Below are positions 4,045-40,636 of a stretch of 64,000 bases of DNA, in pieces. The translations under genes were made by a program, and so were the position numbers. Source of the DNA: Terriglobia bacterium. GTDB lineage: Bacteria > Acidobacteriota > Terriglobia > Bryobacterales > Bryobacteraceae. Numbering within the stretch: position 1 is the first letter of the stretch; each line of letters opens with the position of its first letter. Where the stretch lies: the NCBI GenBank assembly GCA_020073305.1, contig JAIQFK010000013.1, forward strand, positions 62,001 to 126,000, in the 5' to 3' direction. A model generated the notes under the pieces. That model was not told the origin of the DNA. It saw nothing but the letters and a program-made list of their open reading frames with translations, and made no database searches.

Positions 4045-5034
4045 TCAGACAGAGGATTGCGCACGCAAGGCGTTGCGCACGTAGTCGATGATGGAATCCG
4101 GCAGAGTCGGCGTAGCCGGCGGCTCCGCAGCCACCCAGGCCCCCATCCGGTTGGCGAGATCCACCGCCTGTGCCTCCTCCCAGCCGAGCGCGAGTCCCAC
4201 CAGGATCCCGGCGGAAGAGGCATCGCCCGCTCCGACGGGATGTAATTGCGCCGGAGGGATCGGGGTAACATCCACGCTGATCTCCCGGTCCCGGGTGAAC
4301 AGCAAAGTGCCTTCTCCTCCCCGTGTGAGTACGACGGCCCGCGCGGGAAAGCGCGCCAGGAGTGCTTCCAGCCGGCGTCGAATGCCGTTGCCGGTTGTAT
4401 CCGGAGACGTCTCAATGCCGAGCAGCTCGCAGATGGTCATCAACTCCGGCTGGTTCGCCTTGATGATGGTAGCCAGCCGACAACTGGTCTCCACGATTTC
4501 CCGGCTGTAGGCACGCTCCCCGCTTTTGGTATTCTGCCGCAGGTTGACATCATACAGGCGCACGGCTTGCGGCGCGTTTTCGAGAAACTGGCGAATTGTA
4601 TTCCGCGATACCGGCGAGCGCTGGGCAAGGCTTCCGAAGCATACCGCGTGGCACTGGGACGCGAGGGCGTCGAGCGAGTCGCCGGGAACGATGAAGTCCC
4701 AGGCTGCGGGGAACTCGATCTGATAGCCGGGCTCCCCGTCGCGCATGAAAACGGAGACGCGGCCGGTGGGGTGCTCGGCCTCGGTGGCGATGTAGCGTGT
4801 GGACATGGCGCGGGAGCGGACCGCGGAGAGAAGGAGCCGGCCGTGCGCATCGTTACCCACCGCGCTCACGACGACGCCCTCGCCCAGGCCGAGCGGGGCC
4901 GCAAGCTGATGTGCGTGCACGGCCACGTTGAGCGGCGCGCCGCCCAGCGCCTCACGCCCGTCTTCGAAGACGTCGAACAGCACTTCGCCGATGCCGACGA
5001 AGATGCGATGCGAATCGGTGGCCTCGCGAGACAT
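4045..5034 (-). CDS. PfkB-family carbohydrate kinase (fructokinase-like)
   Basis: GEVLFDVFEDGREALGGAPLNVAVHAHQL at N-term and PVGAGDASSAGILVGLALG catalytic motif. Confidence 0.88.
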   Translation of the reverse strand: MSREATDSHRIFVGIGEVLFDVFEDGREALGGAPLNVAVHAHQLAAPLGLGEGVVVSAVGNDAHGRLLLSAVRSRAMSTRYIATEAEHPTGRVSVFMRDGEPGYQIEFPAAWDFIVPGDSLDALASQCHAVCFGSLAQRSPVSRNTIRQFLENAPQAVRLYDVNLRQNTKSGERAYSREIVETSCRLATIIKANQPELMTICELLGIETSPDTTGNGIRRRLEALLARFPARAVVLTRGGEGTLLFTRDREISVDVTPIPPAQLHPVGAGDASSAGILVGLALGWEEAQAVDLANRMGAWVAAEPPATPTLPDSIIDYVRNALRAQSSV

Positions 5035-5135
5035 GCTCCGCGTTCCGGTGACAGGTAAGATGGAGTATAACAGCCGGTGATGCGGGGATGCGTGTGCTAA
5101 TCTAGGTTCGTTTCCGGGGGCGGGCTATCTGATTT

Positions 5136-5900
5136 ATGTGGAGAGGCGATTACTTTTACCTGCTGCGTAACCTGGTCCTGAAGGACTTCCGTACGCGCTA
5201 CCGGAACATGTCCCTGGGCCTTTTGTGGTCCCTGGTGAACCCGCTGGTCATGATGACGATGATGACCTTCGTATTCACCAAGATCTTCCCCCTCACCGCG
5301 ATCTCCAAGTTCCCGGTATTTGTTTTATGTGGACTGGTTCCCTTCAATTTCTTCAGCCTGGCTTGGGCCAACGGAACTACGTCGATCATTGATAATGCTC
5401 AATTGATCAAGCGTGTCCCGGTGCCGCGCGAAACGTTGCCGATAGCCAGCGTGCTCGGGAACGCGGTTCATCTTACAATTCAGGTTGTGCTGCTGCTGGT
5501 GATCGCCCTCGCTTTCGGAACAGGGGTCAACCGCTACTGGTTGTGGCTTCCGGTGCTGTGGGCGTGCGAACTCGTTTTCGTAATAGGCTGCGCTCTCTTG
5601 TGCGGCGCACTGGACGTTTATGTTCGCGATATGCGTTACGTGGTGGAATCCGCCTGCATGGTGTTGTTCTGGCTGGTGCCGATTTTCTACGACATTTCCC
5701 GGGTTCGGCCGCAGTACGCCGACATTTACCAGTACAATCCCATCGCCGCCCTTGTGTTGGCGCTACGAAACATCATTCTTGAGGGGAAACCGCCGCGCGC
5801 GGTATTGCTCTCCAAGCTATTCTTGGTATCGTTCTTCATGTTGTTGTTAGGCTGGTCTGTGTTTCGCCGGTTGAGCCGCCGGTTCTACGACTATCTCTGA
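5136..5900 (+). CDS. ABC-2 type transporter permease (polysaccharide/polyol-phosphate export type)
   Basis: LLRNLVLKDFRTRYRNMSLGLLWSLVNPLVMM, six hydrophobic segments, Wzm/KpsM-like. Confidence 0.9.
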   Translation: MWRGDYFYLLRNLVLKDFRTRYRNMSLGLLWSLVNPLVMMTMMTFVFTKIFPLTAISKFPVFVLCGLVPFNFFSLAWANGTTSIIDNAQLIKRVPVPRETLPIASVLGNAVHLTIQVVLLLVIALAFGTGVNRYWLWLPVLWACELVFVIGCALLCGALDVYVRDMRYVVESACMVLFWLVPIFYDISRVRPQYADIYQYNPIAALVLALRNIILEGKPPRAVLLSKLFLVSFFMLLLGWSVFRRLSRRFYDYL

Positions 5901-5903
5901 ACC

Positions 5904-6647
5904 ATGGATGCCATCGTCTTCGCTTCTGTGACCAAAACGTTCCCCATGAACGCTCAGCGCATGCTGGCGAGAGGCTACCTGGCGAAATGGCTGAAACGGG
6001 GGAGCAGGGAGCGGTTTGTGGCTCTGCGAAACATCTCGTTTCGGATTCCGCGGGGCCAGACGGTGGGTGTGGTGGGGGTCAACGGCGCGGGTAAGAGCAC
6101 CCTGCTGAGTCTAGTGGCGGGACTGTGCCCGCCGGACGAAGGCGCCGTAACCGTTAGGGGCCGCGTTTCCCCGCTGCTGCAACTGGGGGCCGGCTTTCAT
6201 TCCGATTTGACCGGCACGGAAAACGTGCATTTGAACGCGGCCCTGCTCGGCTTCACGCCTGAGAAAACCGCCGAGTCCTTTGACCAGATCGTTGAGTTCT
6301 CGGGCATCGGCCCGTTCATCGATCAACCGGCACGAACCTATTCCTCCGGCATGACCATGCGCCTGGCATTTTCCATTGCGATCCATGGGGACCCTGACGT
6401 TCTCATCATCGACGAAGTGCTGGCCGTCGGCGATCAGGCATTCCAGGTCAAGTGTATGGACAAGATCCAGCAATTCAGGAAGCAGGGGAAAACGCTCCTG
6501 TTCGTATCGCATTCGACCGGCGCGGTGCAGAAGCTGTGCGAGCGGGCTCTGTGGCTGGATCGGGGCGAACTGATGATGGACGGCAACGCAGCCGACGTGG
6601 CCGCAGCCTACGAAGATGGCGCGCGTGTCAACGTCGGGACTCCGTGA
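5904..6647 (+). CDS. ABC transporter ATP-binding protein (Wzt/KpsT-like)
   Basis: Walker A GVNGAGKSTLL, signature YSSGMTMRLAF, Walker B DVLIIDEVLAVGD; 3 bp after the permease. Confidence 0.93.
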   Translation: MDAIVFASVTKTFPMNAQRMLARGYLAKWLKRGSRERFVALRNISFRIPRGQTVGVVGVNGAGKSTLLSLVAGLCPPDEGAVTVRGRVSPLLQLGAGFHSDLTGTENVHLNAALLGFTPEKTAESFDQIVEFSGIGPFIDQPARTYSSGMTMRLAFSIAIHGDPDVLIIDEVLAVGDQAFQVKCMDKIQQFRKQGKTLLFVSHSTGAVQKLCERALWLDRGELMMDGNAADVAAAYEDGARVNVGTP

Positions 6648-6750
6648 ACAAGTCGCTCTTCACGGTCGAGCCCGCGATCAACTTGACCGCGTCTTCGCCC
6701 CTTGCGTTCTCCTGGCAGATTGCGGGTGCGTCGGGTGGCACACCGTGAGT

Positions 6751-8406
6751 ATGGCGGCCCGCCTTTCGCGCCGGCAGTTTCTCGGAGGGATGGCTGCGTT
6801 TGCTCTCGAAGGGCAGCAGCGCACCGATCCCGATGTGATCCTCTACAACGCGAATATCCTCACGATGGACGAGAGGCAGCCTCGCGCGCAGGCCGTGGCC
6901 ATTGCGGGCGGGCGCTTCCTGGCCGTGGGCTCGAATGAGGATGTTCGTCATCTCGCGAAGTCCGGAACTCGGCAACTCGATGTCGGCGGGAAAACCACCG
7001 TACCCGGTTTCATCGACGCCCACACGCACCCTTCCTATGCAGGCATCCGGCACCTGCGATGGGTAGATTGCGATCTCCGCTCGATCGCCGCAATTCAAAA
7101 CGCCATTCGTGAGCGGGCGGCGAAAACTCCCGCCAGCGATTGGGTGATCGGCTTCAAGTACGACGACACGAAGACCACCGAAGGCCGGCGGTTGACGCGA
7201 GAGGACCTCGACGCGGCCGCCTCGCACCATCCGGTTTTCATCGAGCACCGCGGCGGCCATACGGCATATGTCAACACTCTCGCTTTGAAGCGGGCCGAGA
7301 TCACGGATGCGACTGCCGATCCGCCGGGCGGCAAATTCGATCACGACGCCGCCGGACGGCTTACCGGAGGACTGCGCGAGAACGCCACGGCTCCGTTTCG
7401 GAAGCTGCTTCCCACGAGGTTCACTCGCGATGAAATGCGCCAGGGCGTGAAATTGATCTCGCAGATGATGGTGCGCACCGGAGTGACCTCGGTGCATGAT
7501 GCCGAAGGCACTCCTGAAGATCTCCTGGCGTATCAGGATGCGCGCGAGACAGGCGAGCTTTCGTTCCGCGTCTATTGCTTCTTGCAGCACCAGTTTCTCG
7601 ATCAAATGAAAGCCGCCGGCGTACGCACGGGATTTGGCGATGAATGGATCCGCATTGGCGGCCTCAAGCTGGTATGTGACGGGTCCATTTCCGAACGCAC
7701 GGCGCGCCTTTCACAGCCCTACGTGGGGAGGCCCAACGATTACGGCATTCTGGTGAGCAGCGAAGAAGAGCTTTATGCCAACGCCCGGCGGGCGCACGAG
7801 GCGGGTTGGCAGATCGGCACGCACTCCAATGGCGATGCGGCCATCGATATCATGCTGCGCATCTATGAGCGATTGCAACGCGAGATGCCGCGCCGCGATC
7901 CGCGCTACCGCCTGGAGCACTGCACGGTGGTCAACCCGTCGCTCGTCGAGCGCATCCGCGCGCTGGGCGCGATTCCTACGCCGTTCTCCACCTACGTGTA
8001 TTATCACGGCGAGAAGATGCGTGAATACGGGCCGGAGCGGCTCGACTGGATGTTTGCGGTGCGCACCTTCCTCGACGCCGGGATTCGCGTCACCCAGGCG
8101 TCGGACTATCCGCCGGGACCTTTCGAGCCGATGATGGCGCTGCGATCGGAAGTCACGCGCACTGACAGCCACGGCAACGTTTGGGGACCGCGGCAGCGCG
8201 TGACCGTGGAGGAAGCGCTGCGCGTGGGCACCATCAACGGCGCCTATGCATCCTTTGAAGAAAACCGGAAAGGCAGTATCACGGCGGGCAAGCTGGCGGA
8301 CCTGGTGGTGCTGGGCCGCGATCCGCTGCGCGTGGACCCCATGGATCTGATCGATATTCCCATCGAGCGCACCATGGCCGGTGGCCGCTGGGTATACGAA
8401 TCGTAG
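6751..8406 (+). CDS. Tat-signal amidohydrolase family 3 (YtcJ-like)
   Basis: MAARLSRRQFLGGMAAFALEG Tat motif; TVPGFIDAHTHPSYAG; start moved from 6616 to 6751. Confidence 0.9.
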   Translation: MAARLSRRQFLGGMAAFALEGQQRTDPDVILYNANILTMDERQPRAQAVAIAGGRFLAVGSNEDVRHLAKSGTRQLDVGGKTTVPGFIDAHTHPSYAGIRHLRWVDCDLRSIAAIQNAIRERAAKTPASDWVIGFKYDDTKTTEGRRLTREDLDAAASHHPVFIEHRGGHTAYVNTLALKRAEITDATADPPGGKFDHDAAGRLTGGLRENATAPFRKLLPTRFTRDEMRQGVKLISQMMVRTGVTSVHDAEGTPEDLLAYQDARETGELSFRVYCFLQHQFLDQMKAAGVRTGFGDEWIRIGGLKLVCDGSISERTARLSQPYVGRPNDYGILVSSEEELYANARRAHEAGWQIGTHSNGDAAIDIMLRIYERLQREMPRRDPRYRLEHCTVVNPSLVERIRALGAIPTPFSTYVYYHGEKMREYGPERLDWMFAVRTFLDAGIRVTQASDYPPGPFEPMMALRSEVTRTDSHGNVWGPRQRVTVEEALRVGTINGAYASFEENRKGSITAGKLADLVVLGRDPLRVDPMDLIDIPIERTMAGGRWVYES

Positions 8407-8603: not shown

Positions 8604-9695
8604 ATGGGCACCCCCGCCGCACCCGTCGCGAAGACCCTGCCGGCGGGGTATTACACAGATCCAGAAAGATTCGGGCGGGAGATCGAAAAGCTCTACTTCG
8701 AAAGCTGGATCTGCGCGGGGCGAACCCGGCAGATCGCTGAGCCGGGTGATTATTTTCTCCGTGAGGCCGGAGGGGAAAGCATCATCATCACGCGCGATGG
8801 GAGCGGCGTGCCGCGCGCGTTCTATAACGTCTGCAGGCACCGCGGCACACGCATGTGCACGACGCCTGAGGGCAATCTGCCGGGGCGCATTCAATGTCCT
8901 TACCATGGGTGGAGCTACGGGCTGGATGGCTGCTTGATGGGCGCGCCTCACATGGATGAGCCCACTTTTTCCCGCCAGGATTATCCGCTGCATTCCATAC
9001 CCTGTGATGTTTGGGACGGCCACATATTCATTCATCTCGGCACGCGGCCGGAACCGCTGGCCCATCATCTCGCCGACCTGCCGCGGAAGTTCGCACATTG
9101 GGGTATGCAGGATTTGCGTTTGCACAAGCGGATCGTGTACGACGTGAAAGCCAACTGGAAACTCCTCATCCTGAACTACAACGAATGCCTTCACTGTCCG
9201 GTTCTTCACCCCGCTCTGAATCGACTGACCGATTATCTGGGCACGGATAATGAAGCTCCAACATCCACCTACATGGGAGGCGCCATGGGATTTCGCGGCG
9301 GCGCGGAAACGATGAGTATGGACGGCCGGAGGCGCCGGGATTATCTGCCCGCCCTGACCGTTGAGGAACGAAAGAGAGTCTGCTACTACACGATATATCC
9401 CAATCTTCTACTCAGCCTGCATCCGGACTACATGATGACGCACACACTGTGGCCGAAAGCGGTGGACCGTACGGAGATCATCTGCGAATGGCATTTCCAT
9501 CCTGCCGAAATCATGAAACCTGATTTTCAGGCGGACGACGCGATCGAATTTTGGGATCAGACCAACCGGGAAGACTGGGGTATTGTGGAGCTCTCGCAGT
9601 CGGGCATCCAATCGCGCGCTTACATGCCGGGTCCATACTCCAGCCGCGAGGACCTTCTACACGTGTTTGACGAATGGGTAATCGCGCGCGAGTGA
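8604..9695 (+). CDS. Rieske [2Fe-2S] aromatic-ring-hydroxylating oxygenase, alpha subunit
   Basis: Rieske motif CRHRGTRMC...CPYHGW; mononuclear iron region NYNECLHCPVLHP. Confidence 0.92.
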   Translation: MGTPAAPVAKTLPAGYYTDPERFGREIEKLYFESWICAGRTRQIAEPGDYFLREAGGESIIITRDGSGVPRAFYNVCRHRGTRMCTTPEGNLPGRIQCPYHGWSYGLDGCLMGAPHMDEPTFSRQDYPLHSIPCDVWDGHIFIHLGTRPEPLAHHLADLPRKFAHWGMQDLRLHKRIVYDVKANWKLLILNYNECLHCPVLHPALNRLTDYLGTDNEAPTSTYMGGAMGFRGGAETMSMDGRRRRDYLPALTVEERKRVCYYTIYPNLLLSLHPDYMMTHTLWPKAVDRTEIICEWHFHPAEIMKPDFQADDAIEFWDQTNREDWGIVELSQSGIQSRAYMPGPYSSREDLLHVFDEWVIARE

Positions 9696-9699
9696 CCCG

Positions 9700-10155
9700 T
9701 CAGGCGCGCCAGAATTTGCTTTCGAGGCTACGGATTTTGGTCAGCCGCCTTACGTGCCGCTCTTCGCCCGAGAATGTCGCAGCCAGAAAAATCCTGACGA
9801 GATCGCGTGCGAGTTCGCTGGCGATGACGCGCGAGCCGAGCACGAGAATGTTCATGTCATCGTGTTCCACACCCTGGCGCGCGGAGTAGGAGTCGTGGCA
9901 CAGCCCGGCACGGATGCCCGGAATCTTGTTTGCGGCGACTGACGCACCGACTCCGCTGCCGCAGATCAGGATGCCCCGGTCAGCCTGGCGGTTGCGTACC
10001 GCCGTGCCCACTGCTTCGGCAAAATCCGGATAATCCACCGCCGCGGTGCTGTCCGTGCCCACGTCCAGAACCTCGTGGCCCAGGCCGCGAACCAATGCCA
10101 AGAGATCCTGCTTCATTTCGAATCCGGCGTGGTCCGAGCCCAGTACGATGCGCAT
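9700..10155 (-). CDS. rpiB: Ribose 5-phosphate isomerase B
   Basis: [19 protein letters not shown] ... [51 protein letters not shown]. Confidence 0.93.
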
Positions 10156-10162
10156 GGAAACC

Positions 10163-11131
10163 CTATTCCGCGATCAACAGATTTTCCGCGAAGGGCCATT
10201 CGTGGTCGATCCACTGGGCGTCGCAGCGAAAGCCGGCCTCCTCCGACATGGAGACGACCTCGTTCAATGAGTACTTGTGGCTGGTCTCGGTCCAGATGGT
10301 TTCATCCTCGAGGATGGGTACGGAGATCCCGGCTTTCCCGAGGGTCACAATCTGGTGGCGAGTCGAGCGCAGGTGCATCTCAACGCTTCGGGTATCCGGG
10401 TTGAACCGCGAGACGTGTTCGAAGCGAGCGAGGTTAAAATCGGCATTGAGCTCACGATTGATGCGGGTCAACAGATTCAGGTTGAAAGCGGCCGTGACTC
10501 CCAGCGGATCATCGTAGGCGTCGATCAGTTGCAGGACGGGCTTTTCAAGGTCGGTGCCGAGCAGGAGCGCATCACCCGGCTCCAGGATCAGCCGCATTTC
10601 CCTGAGGAAGCTGACGTCGGCGGGGCGATCGAAATTTCCGATGGTACTGCCGAGAAACAGGACCAGCATTCGCTGGCCGCGCAGCCGGCGTGCCGCGACC
10701 TCGAGAAGCCCATCGAGATATTCACGCTCGCAACCGACGATACTGACGGCGTCGATGTCCGCGAGTTCTCTCTCGCACATCGCCAGAGCGGTTGCCGAGA
10801 TCTCGATGGGGTAGTACGACGTGGGCCGGTGGCGGGAAAGCGCCTCCAGAATCCAGCGGGTCTTCTTGCCGCTGCCACTGCCCAACTCGGCGACCACCAC
10901 CTCTCCGCGCACCCGGTCCACGATTTCGCGCGCGTGTTTGCGAAGCAGCCGCTCGTCGGCGCGCGTCAGGCCATATTCGGGCAGAGCGCAGATCACTTCG
11001 AAAAGCCGGGAGCCGATCTCATCATAGAGGTACTTTGAGGGCAGTTCCTTCTGGCCCGGCTTGCATAGCCCGCTGCACACGTCTTCGGCAAAGTCGATGA
11101 CAGGATCAGCGACGATGGGATGGATCAGCAT
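10163..11131 (-). CDS. egtD: L-histidine N(alpha)-methyltransferase (ergothioneine biosynthesis)
   Basis: [43 protein letters not shown] and [18 protein letters not shown]; start set at MLIHPIV (11131). Confidence 0.92.
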
Positions 11132-32605: not shown

Positions 32606-34474
32606 CTAGCGGGGCGGTCGAAACGGAACCAGCCGAATCGACCATTGCCGTTCGGATTCGGCATCGATAGGACAAAGACCCCTTGGTGGTTCAGTGGCGG
32701 GCCAGGCGTCCCCGGACCAGCGGTATTCTCCGTAGTCGATTTCCAATGTGGAGCGTCCGAAGAGGCGAAGTTCCGCTTGGCTGCAATGGTGCACCGGCAG
32801 CCAGAAACCGCTGAACCTCCCGTATTCGTGAGTAAACTCGGTCCTTTTCACCCAGAGCGACGGTGAGACCGCGGGAACACCCCGCGAGCGCTTTATGCCG
32901 AAGGTTTCGGCGTCAACCCAGATTCGGCCGCGAAACTGATAACGCTCCGGGAAGTGCGGAACCGCTCCGAAGACATACGCATTTTCCGTCGCGTCGAACT
33001 CGATCAATTGGAATGCATAGTTCTTCCGGTTAATGTCAGTGAGGACGCGGTTTTGCGGCATGGCACTCTGACACTCGGCTTCGAGGATCGGATAGATGAC
33101 GCGTTTCGCAATGAACCGTGAGCCAGTGGATTCGAGAATGCAAAAAGTCTTCTGGCCCGGAGCAGCATAGTCCAGGCGGATCTTTACCTTCGCCCATTTG
33201 TGGAGCCGGCCGTTGCTTGCGCTGTAGATGCGTATGCTGGTCCAGTTTTCCAGATTCGCCTGCTGCCACCGGCCGGCCTGCTCCATGCGGTCGAGGACCA
33301 CCGAGGGAGCCAACTCCGGCGGTGGCGTTGCGGCATGCAGACCGGCGACGAACGACAGTATGAAAAGTGGGAGCATGGCCAGGCTCGCCACAGCCCGCCG
33401 TGCCGCGCGCGGGAACAGGAGTGAGAACAATCCCCCGAGCCATCCGAACCGGTCAGCAGCCCGGCGCTCCACACTGCCGGGCTCGGTGCGCATTTGCCAC
33501 CATAGGAGCGCGACATCCCGCCAGTTGCGTGGATAAAAGCTGTTCTGGACCACGTAATAACAGGAATAGACACATCCTGAACAGTCCCGGCGCGCGTTCT
33601 TGTTCAGGTACTTCCGCTTTTCGCCGAAGTCGGGCTCGAGCACATTCAGCTTGACCGGACTCGGCTTATCCTGACAGAGCCAGAAGTCACCATTCGGCTT
33701 CACGTCGAAGAATTGTTCGCCTGCCAGGCAGCCCCAGTCGAACTTCTCTCGCCGATATTGCCGATCCGCAGCGTCCGCATAAAACGCTGCGGATAACAGC
33801 GTGGCGGAATGACAGTCGCGCAGGTAGCCGGGCTTGGTCTTGATCACCCTGCTGGTCCTAAGCGCACCCTCGCCCACCACCACGGGGTTCAGCCACACGC
33901 GCACTCGGGGGTAGTGTGCGGCGCAGTAATCGAGAATCTCCTGCACCTGGTCGCGATTCGATTCCGAGACGGTCACGTTGATGGTGAGCTTTTTTCCCGG
34001 AGGCAGATTGTCGTTCAGATAGCCGAGTGCGGAGAGGATGGGCGCTCCGACATGACTGAAAGGCAGATCGCTGCCACGAACGCCGTCGAGAGAAATGCCG
34101 ATCTCCTCCACGCCACTCTTCAGCAGCCGCTCATACTTTGCACGAGGCATGGTTCCGTTTGACGTGAGCTTCACATAAAGGCCTTTCGAAGCCGCGTAGT
34201 TGATGATCTCGTCGAAGTCCGGGCGCAACAGCGGCTCGCCGCCCCCACTAATGCTGATGACCGCCACTCCCATGCGGTCGAGCACGTCGATCACACGCTT
34301 GGTGGATGCGGTATCCAGCTCGGCAAACCGGGTCTCGGTCACGTGGCAGAAGCGACATTTCAGATTGCAGCGGTGTGTAATCGCCAGATGCGCGAAGTAC
34401 GGCTGCTTCGGAAAAATCACGTTTCGCAGCGTGCGCCTGATGAATTTGCCAGTCATATCAAGTCTCCTCGCCAC
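32606..34474 (-). CDS. Radical SAM protein with SPASM-like cysteines fused via a TM segment to a periplasmic LolA/RseB-like domain
   Basis: ITHRCNLKCRFCHVTE (CX3CX2C), ISGGGEPLLRPDF, C-X(n)-CSGCVYSC cluster; then RAARRAVASLAMLPLFILSFVAGLHAA hydrophobic segment and about 240-aa beta-rich domain, one open frame. Confidence 0.85.
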   Translation of the reverse strand: MARRLDMTGKFIRRTLRNVIFPKQPYFAHLAITHRCNLKCRFCHVTETRFAELDTASTKRVIDVLDRMGVAVISISGGGEPLLRPDFDEIINYAASKGLYVKLTSNGTMPRAKYERLLKSGVEEIGISLDGVRGSDLPFSHVGAPILSALGYLNDNLPPGKKLTINVTVSESNRDQVQEILDYCAAHYPRVRVWLNPVVVGEGALRTSRVIKTKPGYLRDCHSATLLSAAFYADAADRQYRREKFDWGCLAGEQFFDVKPNGDFWLCQDKPSPVKLNVLEPDFGEKRKYLNKNARRDCSGCVYSCYYVVQNSFYPRNWRDVALLWWQMRTEPGSVERRAADRFGWLGGLFSLLFPRAARRAVASLAMLPLFILSFVAGLHAATPPPELAPSVVLDRMEQAGRWQQANLENWTSIRIYSASNGRLHKWAKVKIRLDYAAPGQKTFCILESTGSRFIAKRVIYPILEAECQSAMPQNRVLTDINRKNYAFQLIEFDATENAYVFGAVPHFPERYQFRGRIWVDAETFGIKRSRGVPAVSPSLWVKRTEFTHEYGRFSGFWLPVHHCSQAELRLFGRSTLEIDYGEYRWSGDAWPATEPPRGLCPIDAESERQWSIRLVPFRPPR

Positions 34475-34800: not shown

Positions 34801-35283
34801 ATGTGCACAAGAAATTTCGGAACACTTTTGCTGGCGCTGATCCCTGTCGTGGCAACGCCCGGCGAGTCAGAGCAGCCGTACAAAGGGCAGGGTTATGTCT
34901 TCTACGGTCCGGGGCGCGCGCCCGGCGGGGGCACGCTGCAACAAATTGGAGCAGGCGGAGAGGGCTTCCTGTATAAGGGCCTCGGTGCGGGGGCAGAAGT
35001 CGGCTACCTGTACCCGTCCGAAGGCTTCACTTACGGCATCGGCCTTCTTTCGGTGAACGGGTCGTATCATTTCAACCGTAGCCGGCATGCCAAGCTCTCG
35101 CCCTTCGTTACCGGAGGATATTCACTCGCGTTCCGCGGCGGGCACGAGAATCTCTACAACGTCGGCGGCGGAGTGACCTGGTGGATGGCTAGACATGTCG
35201 GCGTCCGGCTGGAATTCCGCGATTACATCTGGTCGGGGGCACAACACTCCCCGCAAGCTCAGTTTGGTTTTTCGTTTCGATGA
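34801..35283 (+). CDS. Small outer-membrane beta-barrel protein
   Basis: N-terminal signal sequence, Gly/aromatic alternating strands, C-terminal QAQFGFSFR. Confidence 0.65.
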   Translation: MCTRNFGTLLLALIPVVATPGESEQPYKGQGYVFYGPGRAPGGGTLQQIGAGGEGFLYKGLGAGAEVGYLYPSEGFTYGIGLLSVNGSYHFNRSRHAKLSPFVTGGYSLAFRGGHENLYNVGGGVTWWMARHVGVRLEFRDYIWSGAQHSPQAQFGFSFR

Positions 35284-35963
35284 ACGGGGCAAATAACATG
35301 ACTACTTTTCAAGATGCGGTGCGTCGTCAAGAGAGTCTTCTGGCGCTCCCGGAACGAAAAGCGCTGCGCTGGCTTGCCTGCCGGATGCCGCGGTGGATCC
35401 ACCCGGATCACCTCACGCTGTTGGGGTTCGCGGCGACGGCTCTGGCGGGGCTCTGCTATGCCGGCGCCCGCTGGTGGGCGCCCTCGCTGCCGCTGGTGAA
35501 CCTATGGCTCGCAGTCAACTGGTTCGGCGACAGTCTTGACGGCACTTTGGCGCGCGTGCGCGGAACGCTGCGGCCACGTTATGGTTTCTACGTCGACCAC
35601 ATGGTGGATGCGTTCGGCGCTGTTTTCCTGATTGGCGGGCTGGCGACTTCCGGCCTGATGAGCGAACGAGTCGCTGTGAGCCTGCTGGTGGCCTTCCTGC
35701 TGCTTGCGATTCATACCTATTTGGCGACCTATACGGATGGCCGTTTCCAACTATCGATTTGGCAGTTCGGCCCAACGGAGCTTCGCATTCTGCTGATCGT
35801 CGGCAACTGTTATGCGTACGCGCGCCCGGTTGTGCGCGTATTCGGGCGGTACTGGCTGTTTTTCGATGTCGCGGGAACTGTGGCGGCGGCTTCCATGTTC
35901 ACAGTGTTGGTGGCGGTGGTGGCGCGTCAAACGGTCCAACTCTATCGCGCCGAGCGAATTTGA
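35280..35963 (+). CDS. CDP-alcohol phosphatidyltransferase family protein
   Basis: DSLDGTLARVRGTLRPRYGFYVDHMVDA matches the family DxxDGxxAR...GxxxDxxxD motif; multiple TM segments; overlaps upstream stop. Confidence 0.9.
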   Translation: MNGANNMTTFQDAVRRQESLLALPERKALRWLACRMPRWIHPDHLTLLGFAATALAGLCYAGARWWAPSLPLVNLWLAVNWFGDSLDGTLARVRGTLRPRYGFYVDHMVDAFGAVFLIGGLATSGLMSERVAVSLLVAFLLLAIHTYLATYTDGRFQLSIWQFGPTELRILLIVGNCYAYARPVVRVFGRYWLFFDVAGTVAAASMFTVLVAVVARQTVQLYRAERI

Positions 35964-36056
35964 TGAAGGAGCTGGGTAAGGTTCAACCAGGTCACGGACA
36001 TGACTTCATCCCACCGTTGGGTTGCTGCCCCGCCGTTTGAGATAATCGGGTCGGCA

Positions 36057-37424
36057 ATGCAAACCAAGTTGTTGATTGTGGACGACGAATTATCGGCCCG
36101 CTACGCCCTGCGCCGGGCGTTTGAGGGCGGTTACCACGTGCTTGAAGCCGGCACCGTCGCCGAAGCGCGTGAACGTCTGGATCAGGATTGCCCTGAGGTT
36201 GTCCTGCTGGACTACAGCCTTCCCGGAGAAGACGGCCTGAGCTTGCTACGCGACACGGCGGGTGTCCCGGAGGCGCCAGCCATCATTATGATTACCGCTC
36301 ACGGCTCCGAACGGGTGGCGGTGGAAGCCATGAAGGCCGGCGCCTATGACTACCTGGCCAAGCCGTATGATCTCGACGAATTGCGACTCCTTGTCGAGCG
36401 CGCCGTGGAACGGCAACAACTGCGCAGCGAAGTACGGGACCTGCGGGAACGGCTGGCTGCCGAAGGGCGGTTCGGGCGCATGATCGGAGCGTCGGCGGTA
36501 ATGCGCGAGCTCTTTATCACCGCTGACCGCGTCGCGCATGCCGATCTGCCTGTACTGCTGCTCGGTGAGAGCGGGACCGGCAAGGACCTGCTAGCCCAGG
36601 AAATTCACGCACGCAGCTCGCGCGTCCATCAGCGCCTGGTCGTGTTGAACTGTGCGGCGCTGCCGGAGACATTGGTGGAGAGCGAACTCTTCGGCTACGA
36701 GCGGGGCGCCTTCACCGGCGCGACGGCTGCACGGGCCGGCAAGTTCGAATTGGCGCATGGCGGCACGCTGTTTCTCGATGAGATCGGGGACATGGCCCCG
36801 GCTACCCAGGCGAAGATTCTGCGCGTAGCCGAGTCCGGAACGGTGGAGCGCCTCGGCGGCGGCACGGTGCGCCAGGTTAACGTCCGCATCCTGGCCGCCA
36901 CGAACCAGGACCTTCCGGCCGCCATCCGTGAGGGACGTTTCCGTCAGGACTTATACTTCCGATTGGCGGGTGTCACCCTGTGCCTGCCACCACTACGGCA
37001 GCGACGCGATGACGTCCCGTTGCTGATTGAACGCTTCTGGGAAGAACTTCGCGGCAAATACAAGCGCAAGGGTCCGGAACTCACCTCCGACGCCATTCTG
37101 CGGCTCGGAGAAGCACCCTGGCCCGGAAATGTGCGCCAGCTCCGTAATAACGTGGAAAAGATCTTTGTCCTGGCGCGGGGAGAAACCGTCACGCGACAGG
37201 ATATTGAGGCTGCGATCGAGCCGGAAGCGGAGGGATCACGCTGCCCAAAGGACATATTGGAAACCAAGGATTACCGCGAGGCCCGTCGCCGCTTTGAGGT
37301 TGCCTACCTGACCTGCAAACTGCAGGAGCATGGCGGAAACGTGACTCGTACCGCGGCCACCATCGGTCTGGAACGGCAAAGTCTTCAGGAGAAGATCCGG
37401 CAGCTGGGAATCTCGAGGACGTGA
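36057..37424 (+). CDS. Sigma-54-dependent response regulator (REC-AAA-Fis)
   Basis: LLIVDDELSARYALRRAF, LLDYSLPGEDGL, GESGTGKDLLAQ, YERGAFTGATAARAGKFELAHGGTLFLDEIGD, C-terminal Fis-type HTH. Confidence 0.95.
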   Translation: MQTKLLIVDDELSARYALRRAFEGGYHVLEAGTVAEARERLDQDCPEVVLLDYSLPGEDGLSLLRDTAGVPEAPAIIMITAHGSERVAVEAMKAGAYDYLAKPYDLDELRLLVERAVERQQLRSEVRDLRERLAAEGRFGRMIGASAVMRELFITADRVAHADLPVLLLGESGTGKDLLAQEIHARSSRVHQRLVVLNCAALPETLVESELFGYERGAFTGATAARAGKFELAHGGTLFLDEIGDMAPATQAKILRVAESGTVERLGGGTVRQVNVRILAATNQDLPAAIREGRFRQDLYFRLAGVTLCLPPLRQRRDDVPLLIERFWEELRGKYKRKGPELTSDAILRLGEAPWPGNVRQLRNNVEKIFVLARGETVTRQDIEAAIEPEAEGSRCPKDILETKDYREARRRFEVAYLTCKLQEHGGNVTRTAATIGLERQSLQEKIRQLGISRT

Positions 37425-37451: not shown

Positions 37452-39428
37452 ATGCTACTGGCCTCCACAATCCGGCTAATGGCATTCGTGCTCGGAGCCG
37501 CCCTGAATATCTTTTTGGCGGTGCTGTTCGCGCGGAAACGGTCTGCGACGCAGCCTGACCGCCTGGCGCTCGTCGCGATTCTGGCGGCCGGCGCGTGGCA
37601 AGCATCCAGCGCCATCGCCACCTTCTACGGCGTCGCCGCTGGCCGCACAAGCACCCTGCTGGTGAGCGGCTTGGATCAAGTGGGGATCGCCGCACTGGCA
37701 GTGATCCCAACGCTCGTGCTGCATCTTGTGACGCTTTGGTCTCGCGTGCGAGTACCGGGGATAGCGGCTGTGTATATCGCGGTTCCGTGGGCCTGGTGGG
37801 CCCTCGAATCCGAACGATTGAAACTCTACGGGTTGTGGCTCGTGGTGGCGTTCATCGCCTCCGCCGCGCTTTGCGCCTGGTCCGCCTGGCGCGGTGGCAC
37901 GCCCGCGTTCATGCGGAGTTTCCTGGCGGCATTTGCTAGCGCGCTTGTCGCCGTGCCGGCCGCAGGTGCTGCCTTCCGCCCGGACTCGGCCGGCGTGGCT
38001 GCCGTTTGCCTTGCGCCGCCGCTGACTGTCACCTGGTGGATCTATCGCTATAATCTGTTCGGCCTCCTTATCCGACCGCGCCTCATCTTCGCGCTGAAGA
38101 TGGGTTTCGTGTTCGGGGTTTACCTCTTGCTCGTCAGAGGGCTGGCAAGCCTTGTGCAGGAGGAGTTCGAGGCCTTCGGCGCGCTCGTGGAGTTGGCGCT
38201 GATATTCGCCGCGGCCATGGTCTGGCTGCCGCTCTATGGCTGGATGAACCGCTTCCTGACGCAGCGCACCACAGTCTACGCGGCGTTCAGCAAGCGGTTG
38301 ATCGAGGAGGCGGCGCGCATCCTGGACATGCCCACCCGCGTGCAGTTCCTGGCCGATGAGGTGGGCCGCACTTTCGGACTGCACAGGACGCTGTTAGTGA
38401 CAGGGGGCGCCGTGCCGCTGATCGGCTACTGCGGCCCGCAGAACGGCGACCAGGCGGGTCGCTGCGCGTGGCACCAGCAGTTGTTCGAGATCGCTCGCGC
38501 ACAGCGTGCTGGGATGGTGAGCACTACTGGCGCCGGTCATCCGGAAATCCGCAGGCAGCTTTCCGCCAACGGCTTCAGCTACGTGTTTGCGCTCTGGTAT
38601 GAAGACCGGTTGAACGGGCTACTTCTGCTGGACACCTCACCCCGCCTTTTTCTGGACTTGGATGAGTCCATCCTCGCCGGCTTGAGCGGTCAGATCTCAC
38701 ATTCGCTGGAGACCGGACGGGTGATCGAGGAAAAGATCGGGCTCGAGCGGAGGCTCGCGCACCAGGAGCATCTGGCCACGCTGGGCCGGGCCGCTGCCAC
38801 CATGGCGCACGAGGTAAGGAATCCTCTCAGTTCCATCAAGACCCTTACGCAATTGATGCGCGAGGATCCGGAAGTGGAGAGCCGCCACTCTCGCGACCTC
38901 GGCTTCATTCTGGGGGAAGTGGACCGTCTGAATCGTACCGTTCAACAGTTGTTGAGCTTCTCGCGGCCCGTGTCCCGGAAGGAAGACGAGGTCCACCTTT
39001 CAGAATTGTTGGAGCGGACGGCCGAAGTGCTGGCGTGCGAATACACCAACGCGGAAATTCGGATCGAGCACTCGATCGAGCCGCAACTGAAACTCCGGAA
39101 AGCCAATGCCGAGGCGCTCCAGCAAGTGGTTCTGAACCTGCTGTTGAACGCGATCCAGGCCTCGCCTGCCGGTTCGGCCGTGAAACTCGAGGCCTCGGCG
39201 ACTGGCGGCAGGATCGCCATAGCGGTGACTGACCAGGGATCCGGGATAACGCCTGAAATTCGCGCGCGCATGTTCCAGCCTTTCTTCACCACTCGGCACA
39301 AGGGGACCGGCCTGGGTCTCGCCATTGTGCGCAAGAACGTAGACGAGATGCGCGGCATTATCGGTGTGGAGAGCCCGGTTGGTGGCAACCGCGGAACGAG
39401 GGTGACCATCACGCTGCCATGCGATTGA
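37452..39428 (+). CDS. Membrane sensor histidine kinase (7TM-like N-term, GAF-like region, HisKA/HATPase)
   Basis: Multiple N-terminal TMs; H-box MAHEVRNPLSSIKTL; N-box LLLNAIQASP; KGTGLGLAIVRKNVDEM. Confidence 0.93.
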   Translation: MLLASTIRLMAFVLGAALNIFLAVLFARKRSATQPDRLALVAILAAGAWQASSAIATFYGVAAGRTSTLLVSGLDQVGIAALAVIPTLVLHLVTLWSRVRVPGIAAVYIAVPWAWWALESERLKLYGLWLVVAFIASAALCAWSAWRGGTPAFMRSFLAAFASALVAVPAAGAAFRPDSAGVAAVCLAPPLTVTWWIYRYNLFGLLIRPRLIFALKMGFVFGVYLLLVRGLASLVQEEFEAFGALVELALIFAAAMVWLPLYGWMNRFLTQRTTVYAAFSKRLIEEAARILDMPTRVQFLADEVGRTFGLHRTLLVTGGAVPLIGYCGPQNGDQAGRCAWHQQLFEIARAQRAGMVSTTGAGHPEIRRQLSANGFSYVFALWYEDRLNGLLLLDTSPRLFLDLDESILAGLSGQISHSLETGRVIEEKIGLERRLAHQEHLATLGRAAATMAHEVRNPLSSIKTLTQLMREDPEVESRHSRDLGFILGEVDRLNRTVQQLLSFSRPVSRKEDEVHLSELLERTAEVLACEYTNAEIRIEHSIEPQLKLRKANAEALQQVVLNLLLNAIQASPAGSAVKLEASATGGRIAIAVTDQGSGITPEIRARMFQPFFTTRHKGTGLGLAIVRKNVDEMRGIIGVESPVGGNRGTRVTITLPCD

Positions 39429-40636
39429 GTCAACGCTTGCCCATTCGACGCTGCCGGGCGCTTCTCCTACTGGCCGCCCTTCAACCGCTGCCGGCTGTCG
39501 CAGGTGACCTGTTCCCACCCGAACAACTGGCGCGCATTCACGAGGGTTTGCGCGACATTTATAATCTCGATCACGAGCGCGCCGCCGCCAACTTCGAACG
39601 CATGATCGCGGACTCGCCGGACGATCCGGCCGGCTACGCCTACCTCGCCACGACGCTGTGGCGCCGGGAACTGAGCGAGAAGCAGGAGTTGAGCATCGAC
39701 CGCTTCGCCGCGTCGGATTTCTTCGCGGAGAAGGCGCGACCTCTGGGGAATGTGGACCCGGTGATGGAAGCGCGTTTCCGTCAACTGAGCGAGGAAGCCA
39801 TCACCCGAGCCAAGCGCCGGCTTAGCCGCACCGCGGACGATAAGACCAGCCTGTTTCTGCTGGGGCTCACTTACCAAAACCTTGCCAGCTTCGAAGTGTC
39901 GTTGAAACGGAATTGGTGGGCGGCGTTCCGCTACGGAACACGGGCGTACGGCTACAACCGGGATCTGTCTCGCGATCCGCAGTTCTATGACGCGCGGCTG
40001 GCGATCGGAGTGTACACCTACGTCGCGGGAAGCCTGGGCTGGAGTGTGAGGTGGCTGGCGCTGCTGATGGGCTACCGGGGCAGCCAGGAGCGCGGCAAAC
40101 AGGAACTTGAGATGGCTGCGCGGCAGGGACAACTGGCGGCGGATGACGCGCGGGTGATTCTGGTTCTGATCCACACCAGGGAGCACGATTACCAGCGAGC
40201 GTACAGTTATCTCGCCGAACTGCTCAAGAAATACCCCCGGAATTACCTGCTGCAACTCGACATGGCAGGAATGGCGCTGCTCATGAAAAATCCGGATCAG
40301 GCCATCAGCACCTATCAGGACATTCTGCGCAAGCATGAAGCTCTGCAGCCCAATTATCAAAAGCTGGAGCGCGCAGCATTGTATAACCGCCTGGGTGTTG
40401 CGTTCCGCGCCAGGAATGACTTATCCGCGTCTTCGGACTGGTTCCGGCGTGCCCTGGCTCAGCCCACGATATCCGTAAATGCGGCGACCCTGGCCCACCT
40501 CGAGCTCGGCAAGACCCTTGATCTGATGGGGCGGCGCGCTGACGCGATTGCCCAGTACCGGATAGCTGCCGCGGCTCCGGATTTTGCAGGCTCGCGTCAG
40601 GAAGCGCAGCGGCTGCTCCACCCACACGTTCGATAA
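39419..40636 (+). CDS. Secreted TPR-containing protein
   Basis: Signal sequence LLLLAALQPLPAVAG; helical repeats DLYNLDHERAAANFERMIADSPDDPAGYAYLA-type; overlaps kinase stop by 10 bp. Confidence 0.8.
   Translation: MRLSQRLPIRRCRALLLLAALQPLPAVAGDLFPPEQLARIHEGLRDIYNLDHERAAANFERMIADSPDDPAGYAYLATTLWRRELSEKQELSIDRFAASDFFAEKARPLGNVDPVMEARFRQLSEEAITRAKRRLSRTADDKTSLFLLGLTYQNLASFEVSLKRNWWAAFRYGTRAYGYNRDLSRDPQFYDARLAIGVYTYVAGSLGWSVRWLALLMGYRGSQERGKQELEMAARQGQLAADDARVILVLIHTREHDYQRAYSYLAELLKKYPRNYLLQLDMAGMALLMKNPDQAISTYQDILRKHEALQPNYQKLERAALYNRLGVAFRARNDLSASSDWFRRALAQPTISVNAATLAHLELGKTLDLMGRRADAIAQYRIAAAAPDFAGSRQEAQRLLHPHVR

Follow-up and report, generated by a model that had tools for sequence, protein, structure and literature searches.

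A radical-SAM enzyme joined to a LolA/RseB-fold domain in Terriglobia and its possible link to envelope lipids

Why would a radical-SAM enzyme share one polypeptide with a periplasmic carrier fold? The question is raised by a gene in the window, the whole 64,000-nucleotide stretch of Terriglobia bacterium DNA that was analysed (contig JAIQFK010000013.1). Few sequence features hint at joint function as well as a fusion or a shared operon. Here both connect a radical-chemistry enzyme with the fold of a lipid carrier and with genes for lipid head groups, in a phylum about whose envelope lipids little is understood. The number of sequences is small, and fused, split and decayed forms are all known.

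Architecture of the gene and its product

The uninterrupted 622-codon frame reported in the preliminary description is present, though on the minus strand, where it runs from 34474 to a stop at 32606; a plus-strand reading of the same interval is ruled out by many stops. The first possible start, GTG 34474, has no Shine-Dalgarno match (anti-SD pairing +1.2 kcal/mol). ATG 34456 (codon 7) follows a strong Shine-Dalgarno sequence (Table 1), the background 5% point being -6.6 kcal/mol, and the likely protein is therefore one of 616 aa; residue numbers are counted from this ATG. The internal Met at the junction (Met 367 in GTG numbering, codon 361 here), raised earlier as a possible start of a second product, lacks such a sequence: its upstream anti-SD energy of -2.7 equals the background (median -2.8), and thus a second start is unsupported. 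The product is a radical-SAM enzyme followed by one hydrophobic segment and a domain of predicted LolA/RseB fold.

Table 1. Positions in the window of the fusion gene, its parts and its divergent neighbours
Feature	Position	Strand	Remarks
Fusion gene	32606..34456	-	616 aa from ATG 34456; GTG 34474 is the frame's farthest start
Shine-Dalgarno GAGGAG	34464..34469	-	7 nt 5' of ATG 34456; -8.9 kcal/mol against the anti-SD
Radical-SAM half	33424..34456	-	Residues 1-344; Pfam PF04055, AF2 model, Foldseek
C30xxxC34xxC37, [4Fe-4S]/SAM motif	34346..34369	-	Invariant in 7/7 members
GGGEP motif	34232..34246	-	Residues 71-75; one L043 copy one G short
Auxiliary Cys cluster C243-x12-G-x4-C261 ... C292-x2-C295-x3-C299	33560..33730	-	In 6/6 members reaching the region
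Hydrophobic TM/signal segment	33338..33394	-	Residues 355-373; Kyte-Doolittle 2.26; possible signal-peptidase site between LHA and ATP, after residue 375
LolA/RseB-fold domain (predicted)	32717..33307	-	Residues 384-580; AF2 pLDDT 88; Foldseek; relatives' Pfam matches
Small exported protein	34801..35283	+	On the fusion's divergent side, overlapping the CDP-alcohol gene's start; beta-barrel-like by eye
Probable CDP-alcohol phosphatidyltransferase	35280..35963	+	Second gene on the fusion's divergent side; relative in the G261 operon

The radical-SAM assignment of the N-terminal half holds, with a match to Radical_SAM (PF04055, E 1.5e-19), the CxxxCxxC motif within the PF04055 core, and the GGGEP motif and late Cys cluster claimed for it all found. 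The further label of SPASM-like stands in part. A SPASM domain is recognised by CX9-15GX4C and then CX2CX5CX3C, for two auxiliary clusters; here CX12GX4C is present, but only CX2CX3C follows in place of the longer motif, and a Pfam search of the protein gives no SPASM match. The predicted auxiliary-cluster pattern is a shortened one and not full SPASM. Naming the enzyme by an NCBIfam family was rejected: many radical-SAM models match the N-terminal half, each far under its cutoff (the best, NirJ, at 82 vs 515 bits), so that none of the named families suits it.

The full-length AlphaFold model (pLDDT 86) retrieves PqqE, SuiB, BlsE and viperin in Foldseek. These nearest solved folds (6c8v, 5v1s and 7vob for the first three) share with the window protein the TIM-barrel core, CxxxCxxC and GGGEP, and BlsE can be aligned with the entire N-terminal half (TM-score by target 0.68). 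They differ in sequence, at 17-21% identity, and in that the window protein has a TM segment and a LolA domain fused to it. All seven enzymes of the subfamily have an amphipathic, positively charged N-terminal helix (residues 3-14 in the window protein), with a helix moment reached by ~2-3% of shuffles, which would suit a membrane surface.

The C-terminal half, about 240 aa long, has on its own no family match in Pfam or NCBIfam and lies under all Pfam thresholds. Among its 33 aligned relatives, DUF5686 matches 29, LolA_like (PF17131) matches 27 and MucB_RseB matches 17, the best relative reaching E 3e-8 against PF17131, where the window domain itself has no match. As a single sequence it finds nothing in the PDB, while its profile gives weak LolA-type matches (3bk5, E 0.002). 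The AlphaFold model of this half (pLDDT 88) finds mainly LolA/LolB, RseB/MucB and related folds in Foldseek; the LolA superfamily structures 3buu and 3bk5 are matched with prob 1.0 and E about 1e-6 to 1e-5 at TM-scores of ~0.4, so that the fold class is clear, but no close relative is found. The predicted half-open beta-sheet with helices places the domain by structure in the LolA/RseB-fold superfamily, as the preliminary description had anticipated. It shares fold and export signal with LolA_like (PF17131), DUF5686, MucB_RseB and LolA-LolB proteins, and most of its relatives match PF17131 or DUF5686; it differs from them in being sub-threshold in Pfam and in sitting behind an enzyme, and no lolCDE-type gene was noted near its locus. 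For the enzyme, dN/dS is 0.14 (window vs its relative in G126), and for the LolA domain 0.28 (window vs that of G091), many other pairs being near saturation; these ratios indicate that both halves are under purifying selection.

Between the halves lies a segment of the kind first described, reading as a signal or TM segment with positive residues on its N-terminal side: three K/R precede it and none follow, and the next best segment in the protein reaches a Kyte-Doolittle value of 1.22. The likely topology has the enzyme in the cytoplasm and the LolA domain in the periplasm. The free-standing enzymes of L043 stop at ...GWFPGLLSFCADRTLGLFRRVN, immediately ahead of the segment, and free-standing LolA-like relatives have their own signal peptide at the corresponding position; two genes therefore appear to have been joined stop to signal peptide. 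The signal segments of the L044 fusion and of the free-standing LolA domain of G091 likewise finish with L-x-A.

Fused, split and decayed forms

The fusion is real, since it recurs as one 596-aa frame in an independent MAG (L044; Terriglobia MAG SRVP_8). The two proteins are 57% identical, both frames are open and the lineages are distant, and homologues are thus not always separate genes interrupted by a stop between the halves. The enzyme of G126 (Bryobacterales; contig also L045) is 68% identical, and its frame continues past the junction into what is left of a LolA domain, shrunken and decayed. That the fusion is recent, a possibility raised earlier, is doubtful because L044 has the joined frame too and G126 a decayed version of it. 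A genome search for the same fusion or for adjacent split genes, proposed at the outset, also yielded the split form: in G261, from another family of the same class, the halves are separate genes of one compact operon, overlapping on one strand in the order lolA-like, CDP-alcohol phosphatidyltransferase, GtrA, radical SAM. Searching the family of G261 for further fusions gave none.

Each half also occurs alone. The LolA domain of G091, 71% identical and free-standing, has no enzyme with it, G048 has likewise kept the LolA domain and lacks the enzyme, and L043 (a contig labelled Zixiibacteriota) carries two tandem enzymes of the subfamily (4768-5844 and 6001-7080) with no LolA beside them. The enzyme subfamily is very rare: among genomes of the family 3 of 237 have it, and it turns up in 3 of 399 sampled across the class and in 1 of 396 sampled across the phylum. 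In the LolA tree, the domains of the window, L044, G261, G048 and G091 group together in a single clade (97/99), which stands apart from a 24-member main group of free-standing family copies. L044 joins G261 in the enzyme tree (100/99), and in the LolA tree it goes with the window, G048 and G091 at weaker support (96/73); an old joined gene may have come apart again in G261, or fusion may have occurred twice.

Two further observations concern these loci. Scrambled, partly inverted remnants of a TPR gene lie beside the free-standing LolA-like gene of G091 (L040 10468-10729), and in the window the TPR gene is found 5 kb away (39419-40636); these pieces suggest that a deletion took the enzyme out of the G091 locus. 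A further radical-SAM gene of L043, its third (9601-10788), encodes a hydrophobic segment at the N-terminus.

Lipid genes around the fusion and its relatives

The probable CDP-alcohol phosphatidyltransferase encoded divergently from the fusion is 63% identical to that of the G261 operon. The window copy matches PF01066 at E 7e-4 and 20.5 bits (cutoff 22), the G261 copy at E 5e-6 and 27.4 bits, and the match of the former to NF040950, archaetidylinositol phosphate synthase, is weak (E 1.4e-10, below cutoff). The small exported protein before it has no Pfam match; in relatives it usually lies next to the CDP-alcohol gene. In L044, a VTT-domain gene overlaps the end of the fusion gene by 4 bp, with a PAP2 gene beyond. 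A connection with lipids is suggested by the CDP-alcohol phosphatidyltransferase, GtrA, VTT and PAP2 genes that lie nearby. The CDP-alcohol gene sits elsewhere in the genome of L044 and in G126, and it is present in 117 of 237 family genomes vs 3 for the enzyme, which is therefore at most an optional partner.

The genes of this neighbourhood also recur in other combinations. The small exported protein, the CDP-alcohol enzyme and an NtrC-type regulator (window 34801-37424) form a trio that is found again in L129, L130, L138, L141 and L144, where the fusion gene is absent within the stretches compared. Within the family, a CDP-alcohol phosphatidyltransferase gene is repeatedly followed directly by a GtrA-like one (L132, L134, L137, L140, L142, L147, L156). 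The GtrA-like gene of G261 (L125 1037-1532) is apparently split across two frames by a frameshift, real or an assembly error.

A tentative role and its alternatives

The reading that we prefer, with a probability of roughly 40%, is that of a two-module inner-membrane protein in which the enzyme modifies a lipid of the membrane, or its head group, and the LolA-like domain carries the product. The enzyme would act at the cytoplasmic face of the inner membrane, where its radical chemistry would alter a membrane lipid or a polar head group that the CDP-alcohol enzyme produces. The product would then be turned over by a separate flippase, of the GtrA or VTT type, taken up by the LolA-like domain in the periplasm and handed on towards the outer membrane. 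The fusion would hold enzyme and carrier at one site, while signal peptidase may still cut behind the TM segment and release the carrier. Radical chemistry tethered to periplasmic lipid or lipoprotein binding had been suggested from the start, and the split relatives beside lipid-head-group and flippase genes suggest a lipid modification-and-delivery step that has gone unrecognised. A fuller version is conceivable but somewhat unlikely: a new acidobacterial pathway whose radical-SAM enzyme would convert a CDP-alcohol-derived lipid into an unusual membrane lipid or head group and pass it through the inner membrane to the LolA domain of the same polypeptide, for delivery to the outer membrane.

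Several observations count against a lipid mechanism: the enzyme occurs without LolA in L043, the LolA part is decaying in G126, G091 and G048 retain the LolA domain with no enzyme, and LolA-fold proteins bind lipoproteins and peptides too. Since each half survives without the other, the fusion may be a convenience and not a necessity. A fusion with no mechanistic role at all would result if the stop between two operon genes were lost and signal peptidase I cut the precursor between LHA and ATP, leaving the enzyme (with a TM tail) and the LolA-like protein to act as separate proteins. The L-x-A end kept in the window, L044 and free-standing G091 fits such cleavage, as do the L043 enzymes ending at the junction and the solitary halves elsewhere, but the joined frame has remained open in two lineages as distant as 57% identity, and the 19-residue hydrophobic segment exceeds the usual signal-peptide h-region, which is shorter. 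We regard this account as rather unlikely.

Less credit still is due to the idea that the enzyme modifies the LolA-like or another exported protein before secretion, with the LolA domain as substrate or guide. It draws on the peptide-modifying SuiB, SkfB and PqqE among the PDB and family neighbours and on the separate radical-SAM gene overlapping a lolA-like gene in G018 and G137. However, no RiPP-type precursor is seen near the fusion gene, the best whole-length folds include small-molecule enzymes such as BlsE, and L043 has two enzyme copies with no adjacent LolA. TIGR04133, the Bacteroidetes rSAM/lipoprotein pair, is described as pairing a radical-SAM enzyme with an exported protein, whose modification is suspected; its partner belongs to another family and is a separate gene, and the window enzyme scores 46 bits against a curated cutoff of 425.

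Very unlikely is a sensor in the manner of RseB, in which the periplasmic domain would sense a lipid or mislocalised lipoprotein and tune the enzyme across the membrane: RseB/MucB are among the folds matched, and 17 of 33 relatives match MucB_RseB, but no anti-sigma partner is fused or seen adjacent, and the halves in G261 are not covalently linked. A sequencing or assembly artefact that joined two genes has next to no chance of being the explanation, given the independent L044 fusion, the decayed read-through in G126 and the selection conserving both halves, even though the LolA domain most closely related to that of the window, in G091, stands alone.

Two of the closest known systems also have a radical-SAM enzyme that acts on lipids. 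In the hopanoid cluster, the radical-SAM enzyme HpnH is genetically linked with the MlaC-like periplasmic protein HpnM, likewise a radical-SAM lipid enzyme linked to a periplasmic lipid carrier; enzyme and carrier are of other families, and HpnH is absent among the best 25 NCBIfam matches of the window enzyme. Tes is a radical-SAM enzyme that links membrane lipids (7tol, PMC8941075). Its core can be aligned with that of the window protein (E 1.5e-8), but the score of 45 bits lies under the curated cutoff of 450, and Tes has no LolA fusion. A literature search for a radical-SAM/LolA fusion found no paper, and no established family with this arrangement was found, in line with the early remark.

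In G018 and G137, a radical-SAM gene of another kind shares 4 bp with a LolA-like gene (L029 2184-3410 with 1471-2187; L033 197-1429 with 1426-2145), and the link between radical-SAM and LolA-like genes thus seems to have arisen more than once. Both pairs are followed by a third conserved gene, which has no Pfam match and is CoA-dehydratase-activator-like by eye.
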